In this document: positions 1 through 37,916 of the stretch, one piece after another
How the letters are laid out: each line of letters begins with the position of its first letter
Position numbering within the stretch: the first letter of the stretch is position 1
Program-made: the position numbers and the translations under genes
DNA from: a virus
Virus record (IMG/VR): IMGVR_UViG_3300015171_000015
Span: 1-37,916 of that record
Direction: 5' to 3' (one strand)
Length of the DNA: 37,916 bases
Notes under the pieces: model-generated
Told to the model about the DNA's origin: nothing
What the model saw: the letters and a program-made list of their open reading frames with translations, nothing else
The model's database searches: none

Positions 1-90
1 AAACACCCGAGCATCACCATACACCTGAGCATCACCAGACACCTGAGCATTACCATACACCCGAGCATTATCAGACACCCGAGCATCACT
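1..90. repeat. Tandem 18-bp repeat array, left end
   Basis: Degenerate tandem units of 18 bp (for example CACCATACACCTGAGCAT). Each encodes one hexapeptide of the beta-helix-like protein on the minus strand. The array continues at 37747-37916, so the window is broken inside it. Confidence 0.9.
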
Positions 91-2268: not shown

Positions 2269-3585
2269 ATGTCAGTCCCCCAATATGCATCTAGTTCGAG
2301 CGCGATTGCCGCGCTTAAGGAACTGTATGTAGACAATAGTGATTACATGAGAGACCTCGTGTATGCTGAGAACCCGTGGCTTACCCTCGTTCCTAAGAAC
2401 GAGAGTCCAGATGGATTTGCAGGTAAGTACTTGCCTGTGCCTATTCAGTATGGTAACAGCAGTGGGCGGTCTCATACGTTTGCCAATGCGCAAACGAATC
2501 AAAACCCCAACCTATATAATAGCTTCTTCGTGTATGTTATCCAAGACTATCAATTAGTTACGATCACGAACTTGCTCATTGAGCAGACGAAGACCAACGC
2601 TGGTGCATTTGTAGATGAGATGAAGCGTGAGATGGACGGCGGCATTCGCAATATCACGAACAACGTTGCGTTCGAGTTGTTTGGCTCGGGCACAGCGACT
2701 CGTGGCATGATCGGCGTCTTAGCTGGTGCAGGACCGTATACGATCACGTTGACTAACCCGCAAGCTATTGTTAACTTTGAAGTTAACATGATCATCCAGG
2801 CCTCGGCTGCGGATGGTGGTGCGGTGAAGCCTACAGGCACTCCGCTTACGCCTGACTTGGCTCAGATCACGGCTGTTAACCGTTCAACTGGTGTTATCAC
2901 CTTCATTGTGCTTCAAGGCGCTCCTCAGACTAACTGGGCAGTGAATGACAGCATTACGATGCAAGGCGACATCCCGCCAGCTGGTGGTTCGGGCAGTGGT
3001 CCTCTCGGTGCGACTGGATCTTACCTAGCTATCTCCGGCCTCGCGGCTTGGGTGCCTGCTACTGACCCGTCTCCAACGGATTCGTTCTGGGGCGTCAATC
3101 GCTCTAGCGATCCTACGAGGCTCGCGGGTCTTCGTTACGATGCGACTTCTTACTCCATCGAAGAGGGCATGACCAATGCGTTGGCGTTCCTGAATCGTGA
3201 AGGCGGACGTCCTGATCTCTGCATCATGGACTTTGCTTCTTACGCTGCTCTTGTGAACAGCCTCGGAGCTAAGGTTCAGTATGTGGAAGTGAAGCATGAT
3301 GAAGTGGATGTGGCCTTTGAAGGCGTTCGGTTCCATAGCGCGTATGGTTATGTTACTGTTCTTGCTGACAGAAGCTGCCCGCCTCAGACTGCTTATGTGC
3401 TTACGACCGATACGTGGAAGCTTCGCTCCTTGGGCAAGGTTCCTCATATCTTGACGTACGGCATTGAGGGTCTCGAAGGACTGCGAGTTGGCAACAGCGA
3501 TGCCCTTGAAGTTCGTATCGGCCATTACGGTAACCTCGTGTGCTCAGCCCCTGGGTTGAATATGCTTGTAAAGCTCAGTGCTTAA
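2269..3585 (+). CDS. Major capsid protein
   Basis: 438 aa. It forms the icosahedral shell, presumably with an HK97 fold. Support: it follows the scaffold gene, has the usual length, and carries the N-terminal pattern of podovirus capsid proteins (IAALKELYVDNSDYMRDLVY, ENPWLTLVPKNE, KYLPVPIQYG). An inserted, Gly/Thr-rich beta domain lies at about residues 150-260 (AGPYTITLTNPQAIVNFEV to GGSGSGPLGATGS). The tail holds typical capsid phrases (FLNREGGRPDLCIMD, GLEGLRVGNSDALEVRIGHYGNLV). The ribosome site AAAGGA lies 7 nt before ATG. The gene looks richer in G/C-ending codons than its neighbours, as expected for the most expressed product. A terminator follows at 3686. Confidence 0.9.
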   Translation: MSVPQYASSSSAIAALKELYVDNSDYMRDLVYAENPWLTLVPKNESPDGFAGKYLPVPIQYGNSSGRSHTFANAQTNQNPNLYNSFFVYVIQDYQLVTITNLLIEQTKTNAGAFVDEMKREMDGGIRNITNNVAFELFGSGTATRGMIGVLAGAGPYTITLTNPQAIVNFEVNMIIQASAADGGAVKPTGTPLTPDLAQITAVNRSTGVITFIVLQGAPQTNWAVNDSITMQGDIPPAGGSGSGPLGATGSYLAISGLAAWVPATDPSPTDSFWGVNRSSDPTRLAGLRYDATSYSIEEGMTNALAFLNREGGRPDLCIMDFASYAALVNSLGAKVQYVEVKHDEVDVAFEGVRFHSAYGYVTVLADRSCPPQTAYVLTTDTWKLRSLGKVPHILTYGIEGLEGLRVGNSDALEVRIGHYGNLVCSAPGLNMLVKLSA

Positions 3586-3609
3586 TAGCCCTTCGCTTTA
3601 CAAATAGAC

Positions 3610-3629
3610 TTATTATCGTAAGATAATAA
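3610..3629 (+). other. Perfect hairpin in the 3' UTR of the capsid gene
   Basis: TTATTATC-GTAA-GATAATAA: 8-bp stem with a GNRA-type tetraloop, 25 nt after the capsid stop codon and before the terminator. Possibly an mRNA-stabilising or processing hairpin. Confidence 0.5.
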
Positions 3630-3685
3630 AGCCTAATTCCTCCAGAGTAAGGCATTACATTCCCCGTAATGTCTTCTCGTTTGAC

Positions 3686-3723
3686 AAGCCCCTGAAGAGG
3701 TAAAATCTCTTTGGGGGCTTTTT
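3686..3723 (+). terminator. Rho-independent terminator after the capsid gene
   Basis: AAGCCCC (3686-3692) pairs with GGGGCTT (3714-3720), with an inner AGAG/CTCT stem, followed by a T run. It ends the scaffold-capsid transcript and separates it from the new promoter at 3771. Confidence 0.85.
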
Positions 3724-3770
3724 AATTTGCAGTTTGCAATTCATTAATTGTAGAAGTCAATACAATTCTA

Positions 3771-3799
3771 TTGACAAGCAACAAGTAACCTAATATAAC
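3771..3799 (+). promoter_or_regulatory. Strong sigma-70 promoter
   Basis: TTGACA (3771-3776), 17-bp spacer, TATAAC (3794-3799). This is the best complete match in the window. It lies between the capsid terminator and the structured leader, with predicted transcription start near 3806. Confidence 0.75.
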
Positions 3800-3805
3800 A
3801 TATGT

Positions 3806-4236
3806 AAGCCACACGCATTACAGCTGGCATGGTGATCGGGTAAACGGTTGTTAAACGAGACCCAAAATCCTAGCCTGGCTTTACGTGAGGGCGGTTCATA
3901 GTCGATAAGCTTTGGCTAGTAGCTGGGTGTGGTTTAACCGTTTGATTCACCAAAAGCCCCACTCGAAAGAGACAGCGATAGTCCCGAGGAAACGACGCTT
4001 AGTACTAATGGGGAAAAGAAGACTCGTGTGCTCTCTTCACCAAGTGATTGAAATCAATCACCTGCTATAACCCTTCGATTATAAATAAGATTGCCCGAAC
4101 TATCTGGTAATTCCGAATACTTCAATCGCCCAAACCCCCCTATACAAGAGGTTCACCTCTAACTGTCCCGGCAGAATCCGGTGCCCGTAGGCTTGCCCCA
4201 GGCATACGGTGACGAAACGGGGCATAAGAGGAACCT
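3806..4236 (+). ncRNA. Long structured leader or non-coding RNA
   Basis: About 430 nt without a plausible gene, transcribed from the promoter at 3771. Seen helices: CCPTA-type hairpin CCGTA...TACGG at 4184-4209 with inner GCTTG/CAGGC; GTGATTG-AAAT-CAATCAC at 4044-4061; AGAGG-TTCA-CCTCT at 4147-4160; CTC-GAAA-GAG at 3962-3971; CCCCA (3957-3961) with TGGGG (4009-4013); CTAGCC (3870-3875) with GGCTAG (3914-3919). Two long-range helices interleave: AAGCCACAC (3806-3814) with GTGTGGTTT (3927-3935), and AAACGGTT (3842-3849) with AACCGTTT (3936-3943), the latter extended by GGTGA/TCACC. They form either a pseudoknot or a switch. It ends at the ribosome site (AGAGGAA) of the ice-binding-like gene. 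It may be a regulatory 5' leader or a separate RNA; no Rfam family was recognised. Confidence 0.55.
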
Positions 4237-5577
4237 ATGGCAAATCGCCGCTACCAATCCCAATTTCTTCAGACTTTCGAAACCCAACAGGTATTGTTGG
4301 AATGTAACTTCCTAGTAGACCCGCTCAATCCTAACGGAATGGGCACTTCTCTTTTAAAAGGCGCAGGCATTGCTGCCGTTTATATGAACGTGCAGGGCGC
4401 AGGTCCTGCAGGCACTCCTGCAATGGGGTCTGCACGAACCTTCGCTATCCTAGGCGCTTCGGCAGTATCTAATACGGGTTCCAGCGTTCTATCTGGTGAT
4501 CTCGGTATCTATCCAAACGGCCCCTCTTCGGTTACTGGGTTTCCTCCTGGAACCTATAGCGGAGCACTACATGCTGCGGACACAGTGGCTCAGCAGGCAC
4601 AAGCCTCCGCCCTCGCAGCCTATACTGATTTGCAGGCTCGCGTTGCTACTGTAATCCCAACTGAACTTGGCGGGCAGTCTCTTGCCCCCGGGGTTTATAG
4701 AGCCGCTAGTGGTACTTTCACACTTAACGGAACGCTTACTCTTACTGGACCTGCTTCCAGCCTGTACGTGTTCCAGACCGCTACTACTCTTGTTACTGGC
4801 GCATCCAGCACCCCAGTTATAGCGCTTGGAAGCGTTCTTCCTAGCAACATCTATTGGGCAATCGGTTCGTCTGCAACTATTAACTCAGGGAACGCAGGCA
4901 CTTTTAGTGGTAACGTTATCGCCCAAGCTTCTATCACAGATACCCTCGGGGGTACGGTTAATGGAACTTTGGTGGCCCTTACCGGTGCAGTTACACTTAG
5001 TGCGGCGTCTTTGATTAACGTACAGACCCTCGCCCCATCCTTTGTGGCCCCGGGTAACCCAAATCCAGCTCCCGGTTACATCATGGTTCAGTTTACTGAT
5101 GTATACTCCCGTTATTTGGCTGGATTTTCTGGGTTTGCTTCTGGTGCAGGTGGTGTTATCAGTAATATTGGTGGAACGGCATTGACTCAAGGAAAAGCCT
5201 ACTTTGTTAATAGCGTTGGTACCAGCACTCAAGCAGATTGGACTGCAGTAGGGCTTCCAGCGGGAGTAGTTCCAGTTAGAGGAATGCCTTTCATTGCAGC
5301 CACAACTGGAGCAGGATCGGGATCTGGTACAGCAAGAACCGATAGTGTCTCTGGTATTGGCTCTATTGAGACGTTGGCAGTACCTAATTTGAGTGTATCA
5401 GCTATGGCAAAGTTACCCGCATCTAGTGTTCAGCCTATTGGACAAACTGTTGGCGGATACATAATTTTAATTTGCCTCGATGCTCCTGGAACTGCCCCAG
5501 TACCTCCTGCAACTTTTAGTACAGTATATCTAAACTTCTTGCTCTCCAATAGTTCAGTGACCATTAAAGGTCAGTAA
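4237..5577 (+). CDS. Virion protein with an inserted ice-binding-like (DUF3494) domain
   Basis: 446 aa. Seen: residues 1-60 (MANRRYQSQF...) and about 275-446 resemble a phage capsid-associated or decoration protein split in two. Between them, about residues 66-262 match the DUF3494 ice-binding fold: FAILGASAVSNTG near the start, SGDLGIYP, PGTYSG, an AQQAQASALAAYTDLQAR helix, LGGQSLAPGVYRAAS, FTLNGTLTLTG, YVFQTATTL, IYWAIGSSATINSG, FSGNVIAQASIT, VNGTLVALTGAVTLSAASLI. Family knowledge: such domains bind ice or act as beta-solenoid adhesion modules in cold-adapted microbes. Place (after capsid, before the adaptor) suggests a head-surface decoration protein or short head fibre. It has its own promoter, leader and terminator, so its dose may be set separately. 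Ice binding itself is inference. Confidence 0.75.
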   Translation: MANRRYQSQFLQTFETQQVLLECNFLVDPLNPNGMGTSLLKGAGIAAVYMNVQGAGPAGTPAMGSARTFAILGASAVSNTGSSVLSGDLGIYPNGPSSVTGFPPGTYSGALHAADTVAQQAQASALAAYTDLQARVATVIPTELGGQSLAPGVYRAASGTFTLNGTLTLTGPASSLYVFQTATTLVTGASSTPVIALGSVLPSNIYWAIGSSATINSGNAGTFSGNVIAQASITDTLGGTVNGTLVALTGAVTLSAASLINVQTLAPSFVAPGNPNPAPGYIMVQFTDVYSRYLAGFSGFASGAGGVISNIGGTALTQGKAYFVNSVGTSTQADWTAVGLPAGVVPVRGMPFIAATTGAGSGSGTARTDSVSGIGSIETLAVPNLSVSAMAKLPASSVQPIGQTVGGYIILICLDAPGTAPVPPATFSTVYLNFLLSNSSVTIKGQ

Positions 5578-5598: not shown

Positions 5599-5640
5599 GG
5601 CAGGTTGTACACCAAAACGTGTACAGCCTGCCCCTTTTAT
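5599..5640 (+). terminator. Terminator hairpin
   Basis: A 14-bp stem, GGCAGGTTGTACAC (5599-5612) with GTGTACAGCCTGCC (5619-5632), one G-T pair, 6-nt loop, then CCTTTTATTT. A strong hairpin with a moderate T tract. Some readthrough into the adaptor gene is likely. Confidence 0.75.
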
Positions 5641-5650
5641 TTGGAGACCC

Positions 5651-6691
5651 ATGATCCCCGCTATTCCAAATCCCAGTACAACTTACCTACAACAAGGGAA
5701 CGGCCAAGTCCTTCTTTCTTGGGCTTATGTGACTGGGGCCACAAGTTATAGCGTACAAAGAAGTCTTGATGGTCTTTCTTATGTGACTGTAGCTACTCCC
5801 ACGATTAATAGTTATCTCGACGCCACAGTAACACCTGGCACCCAATACTTTTATCAACTTGCCTCTGTAAATGTTAGTGGTACGTCTGCCTACACGCCAT
5901 CTCAGTCAATTGTCCCCACCATTCAGGGAAAGGCATCTCTTGCCTCGCTAAGACTAGCGGCTCAACAACGTGCTGATAGGGTTAATTCCAATTTTGTTGG
6001 GCTCCCTGAATGGAACTTCTTTATTAATCAAGCCGCCTCCGAGTTGTATGACATCCTTGTACAATCCTATGAGGATTACTTTGTAGCACAGCCAGCGCTT
6101 TTCACTACAAATGGAAGCTCTCAGTCGTACCCCTTGCCAGATGGAGTTCTTACTTTCAAAGACCCAGCCGGGAATACTTACGTAGCCCCCCCACTCTATA
6201 AACTAATGGGAGTGGATCTAGGACTTAACAATGCTCCTAATGGGTGGGTAACGGTAAAGAAGTTTAATTTCATAGATAGGAACCAATATGTATTCCCAAA
6301 TACATCTAGTACCCTTTATGGTGTATTCAATCTTCGTTATCGGCTGGTTGGTAGCACAATAGAATTCATTCCAGTTCCAACTAATCAACAGCCGATGCGG
6401 CTCTGGTACATTCCCCGAATGGCACAACTATTACAAGACACAGATACTCTCGAAGGCATCGCCGGAGCATGGTTCCAATATGTCATCATTAGAGCAGCAA
6501 AGTATGCTCTCGATAAAGAAGAGAGCGACACAACTAAGTTAGATGAGGAGCTGCTTTTCCTACGTAAGAGTATTGAAGAGAGCGCGCCTAATAGAGATGT
6601 TGGGCAAGCAGATACTATTAGCAATACACGAAATGCATCCGGGTATGGTGGGGGAAATGGCTTCCCAGGTATGGGCGGGCAGGGTTGGTAA
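5651..6691 (+). CDS. Tail adaptor (head-tail connector) with N-terminal FN3 domain
   Basis: 346 aa. Residues 1-95 form a fibronectin type III-like domain (VLLSWAYVTGATSYSVQRS, TQYFYQLASVNVSGTS). From about residue 97 the protein resembles podovirus adaptors of the gp4/tail-tube-A kind: ASLRLAAQQRADRVNSNFV, EWNFFINQAASELYDILVQSYEDYF, FTTNGSSQSYPLPDG, a beta core with RLWYIPRMAQL, and helical WFQYVIIRAAKYALDKEE. A Gly-rich tail ends the chain. Role: it binds under the portal ring and joins the nozzle. The FN3 fusion is the odd part; such domains usually decorate virion surfaces and bind carbohydrate or cells. Ribosome site GGAG lies 5 nt before ATG. Confidence 0.75.
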   Translation: MIPAIPNPSTTYLQQGNGQVLLSWAYVTGATSYSVQRSLDGLSYVTVATPTINSYLDATVTPGTQYFYQLASVNVSGTSAYTPSQSIVPTIQGKASLASLRLAAQQRADRVNSNFVGLPEWNFFINQAASELYDILVQSYEDYFVAQPALFTTNGSSQSYPLPDGVLTFKDPAGNTYVAPPLYKLMGVDLGLNNAPNGWVTVKKFNFIDRNQYVFPNTSSTLYGVFNLRYRLVGSTIEFIPVPTNQQPMRLWYIPRMAQLLQDTDTLEGIAGAWFQYVIIRAAKYALDKEESDTTKLDEELLFLRKSIEESAPNRDVGQADTISNTRNASGYGGGNGFPGMGGQGW

Positions 6692-17300: not shown

Positions 17301-17669
17301 ATGTCCCATAAAAGTAATCTAAAAGTTTTCCCCTCAATCGTAGCTGGGGATATGGCTGGGGATCTCACCTCCAAAGTCACTAACATCCAATTCCTTGATC
17401 TTATTGGGATTCAGGCTAATGTAGTGTCGGGCACGCCCACCGGAAGCCTAGCTGTACAGGTTTCAGCAGATTATAACCAAGATGATCTTGGCAATGTGCT
17501 TAATGTAGGCACTTGGGTCACTTTAGTCACTCAGGCGATCACCTCTGGATCCCCTGCGGCCACATATGTTGACCTAACCCCCACCAGTGCTCCTTGGATT
17601 CGACTTAAATATACCCGTACTTCTGGAACTGGGGTTCTTAACGCCTTTGTAACCGGAAAGAGCATCTAA
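17301..17669 (+). CDS. Small beta-rich virion protein, unknown
   Basis: 122 aa. Begins SHKSNLKVFPSIVAGDMAGDLTSKVTNIQFLDLIGIQAN and ends WIRLKYTRTSGTGVLNAFVTGKS, an all-beta pattern typical of short phage fibre-base or decoration proteins next to fibre genes. No enzyme motif. Ribosome site GAGG lies 5 nt before ATG. Its stop codon overlaps the start of the long fibre gene by 1 base, so it may be the fibre's partner or base. Confidence 0.55.
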   Translation: MSHKSNLKVFPSIVAGDMAGDLTSKVTNIQFLDLIGIQANVVSGTPTGSLAVQVSADYNQDDLGNVLNVGTWVTLVTQAITSGSPAATYVDLTPTSAPWIRLKYTRTSGTGVLNAFVTGKSI

Positions 17670-20083
17670 TGTCTACATCATACATTACCTATCCTCCTAA
17701 GGGTGTTCCGATTTATGCCAATGTCTCGTTACTACCCTCAACAGCTATACCGGGATCTTTAGCTACAGTAACTAATACCGACTCACTTTATATTTATGAT
17801 GCAATCACCGGTTGGGTGCTTATATCTGCAGGCGGAGGCGGAGGTATTTCTGGGGCTGGAGCTAGCTCTCAAGTAGCTTTTTTCACTGGAACCTCCGTTA
17901 TAGCTAGCTCTTCCACCCTCACTTTATTCGGAGGTATCCTTACTACCCCCAATCTAGTTGCTAATGGACGCTTAGGGGTTAATATCTCTAACCCCGGGGC
18001 TCAGTTAGAAGTTGATATAGCTGGGGCTGCTATTACAGGAATGATTATTAAAGGGGCTGCTTCTCAATCATCTGATCTTCAGCAGTGGCAATCCAGTGCA
18101 GGAGCTGTTCTTGGAAGCATTGCCTCTGATGGGACTCCTAGCTTTCCAGGAGCTGGTGTTAGATCTCAAAGAATTGGAGCCACCTCAATAGCCTCTGCTA
18201 CAGATTCTATTGCAATTGGAGTTGGTGCTACCGCCTCAGCAGTAGGATCCCAAGCCTGGGGAACGAATGCTATTGCTAGCGGTGGGGGTGCTATTGCTCT
18301 AGGAGATGGAGCAGCGGCTACTTTTTCTAGTTCTATTGCAATAGGCTCATCTACTAGTGTTTCTGGAAATGGTGCGATAGCTATTGGAGATGGTGGAAGC
18401 ACTGCAGCAGCAGGAGCAGTTGCTTTAGGTAATGGCACACAAGCACTTGCTACTGATTCAATTGCTATTGGCAATTCCGCTATAGCAAATAATATTGGAT
18501 CTATCGTTATTGGACGAGATACTACAGATACTGCTGCTCATCAATTTGTAGCTGGAAGTGATACTAGATCAATTAATAATGTGTATTTTGGACGTGGGGT
18601 AAGCTCCGCAACCCCTTCCTCCTATGCGATTAATGGCACGGGTGGGCTTGGAACTGATATTGCTGGAGGGGACTTAAACTTAGCTGGTGGTGCCAGCACC
18701 GGGGCGGGGCTTGGCGGATCTATTGGATTTTTTACCTCATTAGCAGGTTCCACTGGATCAACTACTAACGGCGAATCGCAGAGAATGCTTATTGATCAAG
18801 CTGGGCTTGTGAGTATAGGATCAGGCTCTCAGTTTCAGGTAAATTCTACTGGTAACTTAATTAAGATTCGAAATGTATCTTACTCATGGCCCGCCGCTCA
18901 AGGAGCTGTTTCAACTGTTCTTACTGATGATGGTAGTGGCAATCTTTCTTGGTCTACTGTCAGCGGCGGAGCTAACGTCTCTTTATCTAACCTTTCTGCA
19001 CCAACAGCTGTTAACCAAAACTTAAACTTTAGTGTAGATGGAAGTTTTGATATAGGAAGTCCTGATGGGGGCACTACTGTTTTACGCCCAAACACCATAT
19101 ATGCTAAAACAGCAGTACGTATTGGTAGACAAGATGTTGTAACTGGTGGAGATAGGCTCACTCTTATTGTCCCTGGTGGGGGCGGTAGTGGATCTCTTAT
19201 AGCTTGGGGATCTAATGGTGATGGACCAGGTCCCGCTTGGTTTAATGGTAGGACTACGGCAGCGCTATCGGACTTTGTTATTGCTTACGGATCCTCCGGC
19301 AATATGGCAGGTCCTGATGGTATAGCTAGTTTCCAAACAACTGGTTCTTTTACTTTAAAAAGACCTTCTGGAGCCAATATCCTTTGGACTACAGATGGTG
19401 CGGGCACCATTGGAGGTAACACCGTTAATCGTCCGAGTGATATATATGTTTCCAATACTATAAATTCTGGCGGCAATGCCCTATTTGGACCGAATACAGC
19501 GGAAAGAGTTTATTTGGTAGCCTCGCAGGGAGTTGGAACCAGAATAGTCATAGGAAACACGGGCGATGGTGGTGCCTCGGGTTGGAGGATAGAGCGGGTT
19601 GCTGCTGCTGCATCCGACCTGAATTTTGCTTGGGGCACTGGTGCAATTGGAACCAACACCCTGGTTAGCCTACAAACCTCAGGCTCCCTAACCATGAATT
19701 CAGCTTCTGGTGCCAATATCTTATGGGCTACGGATGGTGCCGGAAGCATAGGAGCAGCCGGGGCTAGCAGACCTCTTAACATAGATGCTGCCGGAACTAT
19801 AACTGGTGCAGTTAGTGTAAGAAGTGTACAGCTCTCAACTAGAGAAGCAGGAGCAGGGGCAGATAGTAGTGGGGGCGGTACATTGGTTGCAGGAACTGTC
19901 ACAATTACTACTTCTGCCGCTAAAACAACAAGTAGAATATTTGTTACCGATACTACCACTGGAGCCCTTGTTAATGTTGGATCTTTGGTAGTTAGTGCTA
20001 AAAATATAGGTAATTTTACAGTAAAATCCACCAATTCATTAGATACGTCCACTTTTGATTGGCTTATAATTAATCCATATTAA
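17669..20083 (+). CDS. Long tail fibre with YadA/Hia-like head repeats
   Basis: 804 aa. N-terminus (SYITYPPKGVPIYANVSLLPSTAIPGSLATVTNTDSLYIYD region, residues 1-50) is the virion-binding part. Residues about 165-290 are tandem 14-15-residue repeats with SIAIG, AIALG, AIAIG, AVALG and SIVIG cores, the signature of left-handed beta-roll heads of trimeric autotransporter adhesins. A second repeat, NILW(T/A)TDGAG(T/S)IG...RP, occurs at about 572 and 687, with a related DGSFDIG...LRP at about 455. The C-terminus (LVAGTVTITTSAAKTTSRIFVTD and DTSTFDWLIINP) is a typical fibre tip of phage receptor-binding proteins. Likely trimeric; determines host attachment. Confidence 0.75.
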   Translation: MSTSYITYPPKGVPIYANVSLLPSTAIPGSLATVTNTDSLYIYDAITGWVLISAGGGGGISGAGASSQVAFFTGTSVIASSSTLTLFGGILTTPNLVANGRLGVNISNPGAQLEVDIAGAAITGMIIKGAASQSSDLQQWQSSAGAVLGSIASDGTPSFPGAGVRSQRIGATSIASATDSIAIGVGATASAVGSQAWGTNAIASGGGAIALGDGAAATFSSSIAIGSSTSVSGNGAIAIGDGGSTAAAGAVALGNGTQALATDSIAIGNSAIANNIGSIVIGRDTTDTAAHQFVAGSDTRSINNVYFGRGVSSATPSSYAINGTGGLGTDIAGGDLNLAGGASTGAGLGGSIGFFTSLAGSTGSTTNGESQRMLIDQAGLVSIGSGSQFQVNSTGNLIKIRNVSYSWPAAQGAVSTVLTDDGSGNLSWSTVSGGANVSLSNLSAPTAVNQNLNFSVDGSFDIGSPDGGTTVLRPNTIYAKTAVRIGRQDVVTGGDRLTLIVPGGGGSGSLIAWGSNGDGPGPAWFNGRTTAALSDFVIAYGSSGNMAGPDGIASFQTTGSFTLKRPSGANILWTTDGAGTIGGNTVNRPSDIYVSNTINSGGNALFGPNTAERVYLVASQGVGTRIVIGNTGDGGASGWRIERVAAAASDLNFAWGTGAIGTNTLVSLQTSGSLTMNSASGANILWATDGAGSIGAAGASRPLNIDAAGTITGAVSVRSVQLSTREAGAGADSSGGGTLVAGTVTITTSAAKTTSRIFVTDTTTGALVNVGSLVVSAKNIGNFTVKSTNSLDTSTFDWLIINPY

Positions 20084-20308: not shown

Positions 20309-20679
20309 TGGGCTACAAGACCTTCATATTCTCTATATTGGTTATATTCCTACCGATTAAACCCGTTCTTCTTACGGTGCTTACTCTTGTTGGGGTAGAC
20401 CTAATAGGGGGGCTTATGGCAGCTAAGAAGAGGAAAGAACCCATAACTTCTTCTGGCTTTAAACGCACTATAGTAAAACTATTTGTATATGAACTTGTGA
20501 TCATTTTAGCTCATATTACTACTCAATACTTAACGGGAGATATGATCCCCCTTGTAAAAATACTAGCAGGGTATATCGGAATTACAGAACTTAAGTCTTG
20601 CATGGAAAATATGGAAGAGTTGACTGGAGTTCCAGTCCTTAAAGCCTTAATTGATAAGATAACCCAAGCGGGGCAGTAA
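20308..20679 (+). CDS. Holin
   Basis: 123 aa, GTG start overlapping the previous stop by 1 base. Seen: N-terminal hydrophobic helices (about residues 5-35), then GVDLIGGLMAAKKRKEPITSSGFKRTIVKLFVYELVIILAH and a last hydrophobic stretch (PLVKILAGYIGITELKSCMENM). The D-x-x-G-G-x-x-A-x-K...SSGF order matches the phage holin 4 (TcdE/Cph1-type) family. Role: forms the inner-membrane hole that releases the lysozyme encoded two genes downstream. Overlaps the rhomboid gene start by 1 base. Confidence 0.8.
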   Translation: MGYKTFIFSILVIFLPIKPVLLTVLTLVGVDLIGGLMAAKKRKEPITSSGFKRTIVKLFVYELVIILAHITTQYLTGDMIPLVKILAGYIGITELKSCMENMEELTGVPVLKALIDKITQAGQ

Positions 20680-21272
20680 TGCGTTACAAAGTTACCACCA
20701 ATATACTTCTTGTGAGCATATTGTTACAAGTAATACAATCCCTATTTCCACACTTTATTAACTTCCAGGCCTTCCGCTTAAGCGACTTCGAACAACAAAG
20801 AACCTTTTGGAGGGGAATATCCTGTATCCTAGTCCACATGGTGTCTCATGCTAGCTGGGATCACCTACTTGGTAACTTTTCCTTAGGAATACCGTGCCTG
20901 GCTTATATGGAATACCGCCTGGGCTCGGCTAAGATGCTTCAGTTTTACGTAATAACGGGGGTAGGAGCTTTAGTTACAGCCCTATCCATGCCTGTGGGTG
21001 GGGATGCTCTAATCGGGTCTTCTGGGGCTATCTTTGGCTGTTTGGCGGGATCTTGCATGCTTTGGGGTAATACTAAGGCTACTAAGAAGCTTTCTATGTT
21101 CCTATTGCTTCTGTGGCTATTGCCTCAGCTAATGGCCCTATCTATTAGCTTAATGGGGGGTCATATATCCAATTCAGCCCATATTGGGGGGATGTTGACA
21201 GCTATTATTTATCTTCATATAACGTTGGTTTATGACCGCAGAAGATCTAATAAAGCAATGCGAGGGTTGTAG
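20679..21272 (+). CDS. Rhomboid-family intramembrane serine protease
   Basis: 197 aa, about six hydrophobic helices. The rhomboid fingerprint is complete: HASWDHLLGN in helix 2 (His62, Asn66), GSSGAIFG (Ser115 in the GxSG motif) at the start of helix 4, and SAHIGG (His168) in helix 6, giving the Ser-His dyad. Role by family: cleaves substrates within or near membrane helices. It lies between holin and lysozyme with overlaps of 1 and 41 bp, so it is expressed with lysis genes. Possible targets are a holin or inhibitor, a spanin or an unrelated host membrane protein; no substrate can be named. Lysis role is inference from place alone. Confidence 0.85.
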   Translation: MRYKVTTNILLVSILLQVIQSLFPHFINFQAFRLSDFEQQRTFWRGISCILVHMVSHASWDHLLGNFSLGIPCLAYMEYRLGSAKMLQFYVITGVGALVTALSMPVGGDALIGSSGAIFGCLAGSCMLWGNTKATKKLSMFLLLLWLLPQLMALSISLMGGHISNSAHIGGMLTAIIYLHITLVYDRRRSNKAMRGL

Positions 21273-37516: not shown

Positions 37517-37916
37517 TTATTAATCCTTTGTCTAGGTACAATTTTGCATCCAAGTGCAATAATACTCATGTATTCTGATAAATTAGTAATATTGTTCTCT
37601 TTTGCATCTATATTCTTTAATTTAAATATAGTTTCTTTACCAAATCTAGAGTAAAGTTTACATCCAATTGAGATATTCTGAGGAGTGATTGTTACAGCAT
37701 ATCCTGCCCAAAGGATACAAAATAAATGTGATTGTTTTAAGACTTTAGCATCACCAGACACCTGAGCATCACCATACACCTGAGCATCACCAAACACCCA
37801 AGCATCACCATACACCTGAGCATCACCATACACCAGAGCATCACCAAACACCCAAGCATTACCAAACACCCAAGCATTACCAAACACCCGAGCATCACAA
37901 TAAACCTGAGAATCAC
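37513..37916 (-). CDS. Hexapeptide-repeat protein, C-terminal part, cut by the window edge
   Basis: An open frame from base 37916 (partial codon) down to TGA 37513. The first about 55 codons are repeats (FGNAWV, YGDAQV), then a C-terminal domain (CILWAGYAVTITPQNISIGCKL, LSEYMSIIALGCKIVP) of the type that follows such repeats in phage proteins. A GTG at 37887 can serve as a start only by chance; the repeats and codon pattern continue upstream to the window edge. With 1-210 it forms one gene of about 205 codons plus any repeats lost at the break. Confidence 0.75.
   Translation of the reverse strand, partial: DSQVYCDARVFGNAWVFGNAWVFGDALVYGDAQVYGDAWVFGDAQVYGDAQVSGDAKVLKQSHLFCILWAGYAVTITPQNISIGCKLYSRFGKETIFKLKNIDAKENNITNLSEYMSIIALGCKIVPRQRINK
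37747..37916. repeat. Tandem 18-bp repeat array, right end
   Basis: About nine units such as CACCATACACCTGAGCAT and CACCAAACACCCAAGCAT, continuing those at 1-90. Some neighbours form 36-bp higher-order pairs. Arrays of this kind expand and contract by slippage and are hard to assemble. Confidence 0.9.

Follow-up and report, generated by a model that had tools for sequence, protein, structure and literature searches.

A DUF3494 ice-binding-type domain inserted in a capsid-neighbour protein points to a mobile, putatively displayed module in uncultivated phages

Introduction

The type 1 ice-binding proteins, among them AnpIBP (7BWX), EfcIBP (6EIO) and FfIBP (4NU2), belong to the family PF11999 (DUF3494). 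The domain that we describe here shares with them the family, the solenoid, the bracing helix and the small-residue B-face. However, the known proteins are secreted freely or occur within secreted surface proteins, whereas the present domain lies inside a phage protein of structural type and falls in a separate phage clade. DUF3494 proteins encoded by viruses have been met before. An Arctic study found PF11999 in three viral OTUs and reported these as auxiliary genes (PMC11515562), and Hyperionvirus, a giant virus, also encodes DUF3494 proteins, but these cases were not described there as virion modules. A homolog in cyanophage S-SKS1, named in the Arctic study (PMC11515562), gave no PF11999 match in our hands. 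In a survey of 50,669 metagenomic DUF3494 sequences, viruses are absent from the main text (PMC12337378).

Other proteins resemble this locus in architecture rather than in family. T4 Hoc, T5 pb10 and phi29 gp8.5 are head decoration or head-fibre proteins with a proposed role in surface adhesion; the protein studied here, for which a place on the head is suggested by its neighbouring genes, is related to them neither in sequence nor in any recognised fold. The RTX ice adhesin MpIBP of Marinomonas primoryensis likewise carries an ice-binding domain, used for adhesion, on a larger scaffold, and its ligand domains emerge from split domains. MpIBP is a calcium-dependent, cell-anchored RTX beta-roll unrelated to DUF3494. 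The Ig-like domains of phages are likewise mobile and occur in head, decoration, sheath/tail and baseplate-type proteins (PMC7602432), but their fold and presumed ligand differ, the mobile domain of the present locus being a beta-solenoid and not an Ig-like beta-sandwich.

Here we analysed an IMG/VR virus record of 37,916 bases (the window), in which a sequence-only reading had noticed a DUF3494-like domain within a gene close to the capsid gene. We refer to the protein that hosts the domain as CAP (capsid-neighbour) protein.

Results

The chimeric gene encodes a protein of 446 aa (Table 1), in which PF11999 Ice_binding (DUF3494) is the sole Pfam family (residues 71-257, E 4.7e-41, 141.2 bits against a gathering score of 28.7). 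The match covers positions 1-205 of the 208 in the profile and confirms the family assignment made from the letters. In a phmmer search of PDB sequences, all 19 matches bore ice-binding, antifreeze or DUF3494 names or were the Shewanella DUF3494 domain (6BG8), the best being 6EIO (E 5.6e-31) and 7BWX (E 1.3e-28). A beta-solenoid with a flanking helix had been expected, and AlphaFold predicted this fold, with pLDDT of 94-98 over most of residues 66-260 and the helix present at residues 116-134. The predicted domain matched solved DUF3494 crystal structures with Z scores of 28.8-33.1, among them AnpIBP (Z 33.1 and 32.9) and EfcIBP (Z 31.9), with an rmsd of about 1.2 Å at Z 33; the next unrelated chain had a Z score of 13.1. 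By this model, the domain is a DUF3494 family member with a three-sided discontinuous beta-solenoid and bracing helix, a likeness far beyond chance. The low model confidence of both linkers that join it to the remainder of the protein fits flexible tethers. The protein begins straight with the CAP N-terminal part, with no leader peptide seen, and a PHROG search returned no match for it.

Table 1. Features of the chimeric gene and its surroundings in the window
Feature	Position	Strand	Remarks
Major capsid protein gene	2269..3585	+	phrog_9953, E 1.3e-11; weak SU10_MCP match
Terminator-like hairpin after major capsid gene	3686..3720	+	16-bp stem and T run
Promoter-like site TTGACA-17-TATAAC	3771..3799	+	From sequence; last base C, outside strict filter
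437-nt leader	3800..4236	+	Between promoter-like site and chimeric gene
Chimeric gene, CAP protein with DUF3494 insert, 446 aa	4237..5577	+	
CAP N-terminal part, residues 1-56, first three strands of host beta-sandwich	4237..4404	+	Aligned to empty orthologs
N-terminal linker, residues 57-68, low-confidence, Gly/Pro-rich	4405..4440	+	pLDDT about 67 over residues 51-60
DUF3494 / PF11999 ice-binding-type beta-solenoid, residues 69-261, bracing helix 116-134	4441..5019	+	
Ice-binding (B) face segments of the domain	4459..5001	+	Mapped from AnpIBP (PMC7277481)
C-terminal linker, residues 262-275	5020..5061	+	pLDDT under 50 at residues 267-272
CAP C-terminal part, residues 276-446	5062..5574	+	38-43% identity to empty orthologs
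Terminator-like hairpin after chimeric gene	5599..5632	+	14-bp stem and T run
g3, conserved next gene, syntenic in relatives	5651..6691	+	

With the major capsid protein as query, eight relatives were found that were 66-71% identical. In all seven of these that reach the next gene, the gene after the capsid encodes a protein of 224-238 aa without DUF3494. These empty orthologs align to window residues 1-65 and 274-446 only and leave the middle unmatched, which agrees with the earlier view of a domain placed between two halves of another protein. The alignment was built from separate N- and C-terminal fragments, the loop being misaligned by whole empty orthologs; in it, the insert replaces a loop of 10-18 aa between 'VFMH' and 'NPNP'. 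This comparison shows the predicted DUF3494 domain to be an insertion into a conserved gene.

The model of the empty CAP protein is mostly beta (pLDDT 91, pTM 0.82). The strands that flank the loop are at residues 45-49 and 72-77 in the empty protein and at 45-50 and 281-286 in the window model, and strands E18-27, E37-41 and E45-50 of the N-terminal part agree with the empty-CAP model. Structure comparison of the empty protein gave a best Z score of 6.2, to non-decoration proteins, with 4.1 for the P1 head and 3.4 for the KHP30 capsid. A Foldseek/VIA search on the CAP fold gave no match above the usual background, a PHROG search for CAP gave none below 0.05, and no recognised fold or family was found for CAP. 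In three contigs (L002, L003 and L009), g3, the next gene after CAP, carries an insert resembling the CAP C-terminal part (window residues 287-377), which is another shared module; g3 of the window itself is without it.

A profile scan of viral contigs returned 135 CAP relatives, 80 of which were kept. DUF3494 occupies the same loop in 8 of these 80 other CAP contigs (L044, L046, L070, L076, L077, L078, L079 and L080). On a CAP tree made without the insert, in which the window row has a long branch and an unsure exact placement, the filled state requires six changes, and the AU test rejects the placement of all filled CAPs in one clade (p 0.004). A single clade of CAP-borne domains is rejected on the domain tree as well (AU p 0.0025; 8e-5 without the L044/L076 pair). 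Because both trees point to several separate insertion events, this phylogenetic evidence shows that the same loop was filled several times independently. Filled forms recur as closely similar contig pairs across different metagenomes (L076/L077 and L078/L079).

In six filled contigs (L044, L046, L076, L077, L078 and L079), an empty CAP gene is found directly upstream of the filled copy. Such tandem paralogs, empty upstream and with DUF3494 downstream, stand at 6001-8083 in L044, 1935-3959 in L046, 6043-8045 in L077 and 6001-8014 in L079, and L045 has two empty CAP copies. The window's own 650-bp gap (3586-4236) was examined for the relic of such an empty copy, an idea that was rejected because no similarity extends beyond the gene itself. 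A different module of ~60 aa, of the GMPVQGTGIP type, was seen in the CAP loop of L086 (6001-6876) and of L068 (185-898, a match without the N-terminal part). With DUF3494 in some CAPs and the ~60-aa module in these two, the loop is therefore an insertion hot spot.

A DUF3494 scan of viral contigs returned 93 relatives, 80 of which were kept, and most of these were not CAP. More than 60 further viral contigs have DUF3494 in non-CAP proteins, including tail sheath, baseplate J and fibre-like proteins. The sheaths matched phrog_279 and phrog_2839, the baseplate wedge/baseplate J proteins matched phrog_6 (E 1e-28, 9e-23 and 9e-34) and PF04865, and other carriers had tail-fibre or minor-tail matches. 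Some phages have several DUF3494 copies within one protein. In one contig of 85.6 kb (G007), the sheath and the baseplate J protein contain DUF3494 and a protein of 1,634 aa (L089) contains it twice, and it is to this last protein, unrelated to CAP, that the window domain is closest, with 66% identity over window residues 57-268. The similarity takes in the domain and linkers only, starting at residue 57 and ending at residue 268. At least four different proteins of one 141,877-base virus contig (L138, L144, L160) also have DUF3494.

A tree of 171 domains places 65 viral ones in one clade (SH-aLRT 96) and 82 viral rows in a clade with support 83, while six viral rows fall among cellular DUF3494. 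Because different sequence motifs served to retrieve the viral and the cellular domains, these proportions are not abundances. Cellular relatives are 40-49% identical to the window domain and differ in architecture, having mostly a leader-like start, the domain, and then low-complexity or other surface-type tails. These comparisons show the inserted domain as part of a phage-specific DUF3494 clade that has moved between unrelated structural proteins, namely tail sheath, baseplate, fibre-like and CAP proteins. Beyond what the sequence-only reading had claimed, the insertion is thus recurrent, and the domain is, as judged from these contigs, a widespread mobile module of phage structural proteins. 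A GSP-type linker motif was considered as part of the mobile unit and set aside as too weak (17 of 83 viral vs 6 of 76 cellular domains).

The substitutions S153Y and T156Y lower the activity of AnpIBP to 17% (PMC7277481), and these two residues are conserved in the window as S211 and T214. The B-face of the window domain, assigned by alignment to AnpIBP and not from coordinates, consists of the segments SAVSNT (75-80), SSVT (97-100), SGTFTLN (158-164), TTLVTG (183-188), SSATIN (211-216), ASITDT (231-236) and GAVTLS (250-255). All 23 scored outward positions of this face are S, T, A, G, N or V and none is charged. Among 88 viral domains, 96.6% of the outward B-face positions are one of these six residues and 1.6% are charged, the retrieval motifs overlapping some scored columns, notably 97-100 for the viral rows and 79-88 for the cellular rows. 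Thr takes the six stacked central rung positions in 93% of cases in the 88 viral domains and in 80% in 81 cellular domains, and it is present on all six rungs in 54 of the 88 viral vs 10 of the 81 cellular domains; the window has Ser in place of Thr at rung 78 and Val at rung 186.

The mean entropy of the viral B-face was 0.96 bit, as compared to 1.94 for the bracing helix, a value that takes in buried positions, and roughly 2-3 for many non-hydrophobic C-face positions. The face is conserved in cellular members too (entropy 0.88). By these alignments, no other exposed surface of the domain is as conserved as the known ice-binding face. Since this conservation extends to cellular members, it shows a face that has been kept functional and does not identify ice as the ligand. 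A Thr-rich face is common in the DUF3494 domains of cellular genomes, many of them from soil actinobacteria, and need not mean ice.

The chimeric gene had been placed directly after the major capsid gene, and the PHROG match of the latter agrees with this position (Table 1). It had further been credited with its own promoter, a long leader and a terminator. A promoter-like site, strong terminator-like hairpins and the 437-nt leader are indeed present, but the leader is not unusually structured (z -0.87); the longer stretch 3586-4236, terminator included, gave z -4.6. As a known RNA the leader was rejected, since Rfam gave only a chance lincRNA match far under the gathering score. No similarity to it was found in the related loci, and a pattern scan was empty. 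The usual gene order in relatives is g1, capsid, CAP, g3, with only 150-220 nt between the capsid and CAP genes in close relatives and a gap of kilobases in some others. In L007 (6603-8825), and also in L082, L083 and L085, the major capsid gene appears split in two pieces; those of L007 are separated by about 1 kb with a 184-aa ORF, possibly an intron or similar element.

The portal encoded in the window resembles the SU10 portal (PF23899, E 4e-10), and the window also encodes a terminase, a DNA polymerase of family A and a tailspike-like protein of 804 aa (17669-20083) that has YadA-head repeats and, at its C terminus, a K1-lyase domain. Together, these four genes suggest a short-tailed phage. 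A gene for a Rhomboid-family intramembrane protease (PF01694, E 4.6e-17) is found at 20679-21272. The two ends of the window (3-89 and 37747-37916) carry the same 18-bp tandem repeat, with unit ACACCCGAGCATCACCAG, so that the break in this record probably falls within a repeat of a genome that is permuted or was assembled as a circle.

A tblastn search with the domain, CAP and capsid against 50,697 phage records gave no match. As a control, the window's family A DNA polymerase found 1,488 of these phage records, so the search works. In a viral protein structure library, the only matches named DUF3494 were from Hyperionvirus. A literature search, thin on subscription journals and bioRxiv, found no paper joining DUF3494 and phage, and an earlier mention is possible. 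The metagenome numbers of the contigs led to no paper on their habitats. Within this scope, we found no isolate phage, PHROG or paper showing DUF3494 as a virion module.

Discussion

CAP is most likely a virion surface protein, head decoration or cement-like in kind. We take it as structural because of its gene order and because the same module is found in sheath and baseplate proteins elsewhere; it would lie outside the capsid. The best explanation, to which we give a little under an even chance, is that the domain is a promiscuous display module on such a virion surface protein and binds ice or ordered surface water. For this, we infer that the protein is present on the particle, that the domain points outward and that its flat Ser/Thr/Ala/Gly face binds ice. 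The CAP beta-sandwich, interrupted in one loop by an entire DUF3494 domain, would hold this domain on two flexible linkers, and the B-face would adsorb to ice or to the ordered water of the ice surface. Many copies per particle would give high-avidity adsorption, by which virions may be kept at ice surfaces or in the liquid veins where hosts concentrate, and adsorption to ice may also limit freeze-thaw damage to virions. The module would then work like the Ig-like domains by which virions adhere to mucus or to glycans of cells, as an ice analogue of them and not a member of their group. More tentatively still, DUF3494 may be a general, repeatedly recruited virion module that adsorbs particles to ice or the ice-water interface and that many uncultivated phages carry on head, sheath and baseplate.

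The main rival to the ice reading is a displayed adhesion module with a non-ice target, such as host envelope glycans, capsule or soil polymers, bound by the B-face or another surface. We regard this as a real, though minority, possibility. The conserved surface argues against it, being a flat Ser/Thr/Ala/Gly plane almost without charged or aromatic residues. Such a flat plane of small residues is unlike typical sugar sites. Adhesion of this kind would, by analogy with Hoc and the Ig-like domains and with the same limited probability, raise the chance of host encounter. About 25% of tailed phages have Ig-like domains, and the protein classes that carry them are the same (PMC7602432); in RTX adhesins, too, the domains that bind ligands bud from split ones (PMC12077191), and DUF3494 has been described as both ice- and substrate-binding (PMC12337378); the commonness of the same face in cellular genomes, including those of many soil actinobacteria, also favours a non-ice target. 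The sequence-only reading had proposed attachment to ice or to host polymer, or simple decoration. Ice and host polymer are both candidates, and decoration is less likely given the strong conservation of the B-face.

Specifically, a solenoid that is tolerated in surface loops and that spaces, shields or stiffens the particle as inert bulk or stabilising decoration is improbable. Such a role would be in keeping with the ~60-aa module in the same CAP loop of two contigs and with the several DUF3494 copies found in one protein in some phages, but conservation of the exposed B-face far exceeds that of other exposed positions, and the same family was gained independently and repeatedly. It is very unlikely that the protein acts off the particle, as a free ice-binding or cryoprotective product released from lysed cells. 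PF11999 genes in Arctic viral OTUs have been read as auxiliary genes (PMC11515562), which would suit such a product; however, the present domain is embedded in a conserved head-block gene, and in other phages it is embedded in sheath and baseplate proteins. That the gene is an assembly chimera or mis-binned host sequence, as might be feared of a single metagenome contig, is hardly credible in view of the in-frame insertion, its precise boundaries and the nine contigs of the same architecture, which include two similar pairs from different metagenomes.

The matched empty and filled versions of CAP make the function of the domain directly testable. If the module does bind ice, then phage particles in freezing habitats would attach to ice, which would change our view of how phages are transported, survive and meet their hosts in frozen ground, snow and permafrost. 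Multivalent ice-binding particles would also be available ready-made. Should ice binding not hold, these results would still reveal a display module that moves among the head-block, sheath and baseplate proteins of many uncultivated phages.
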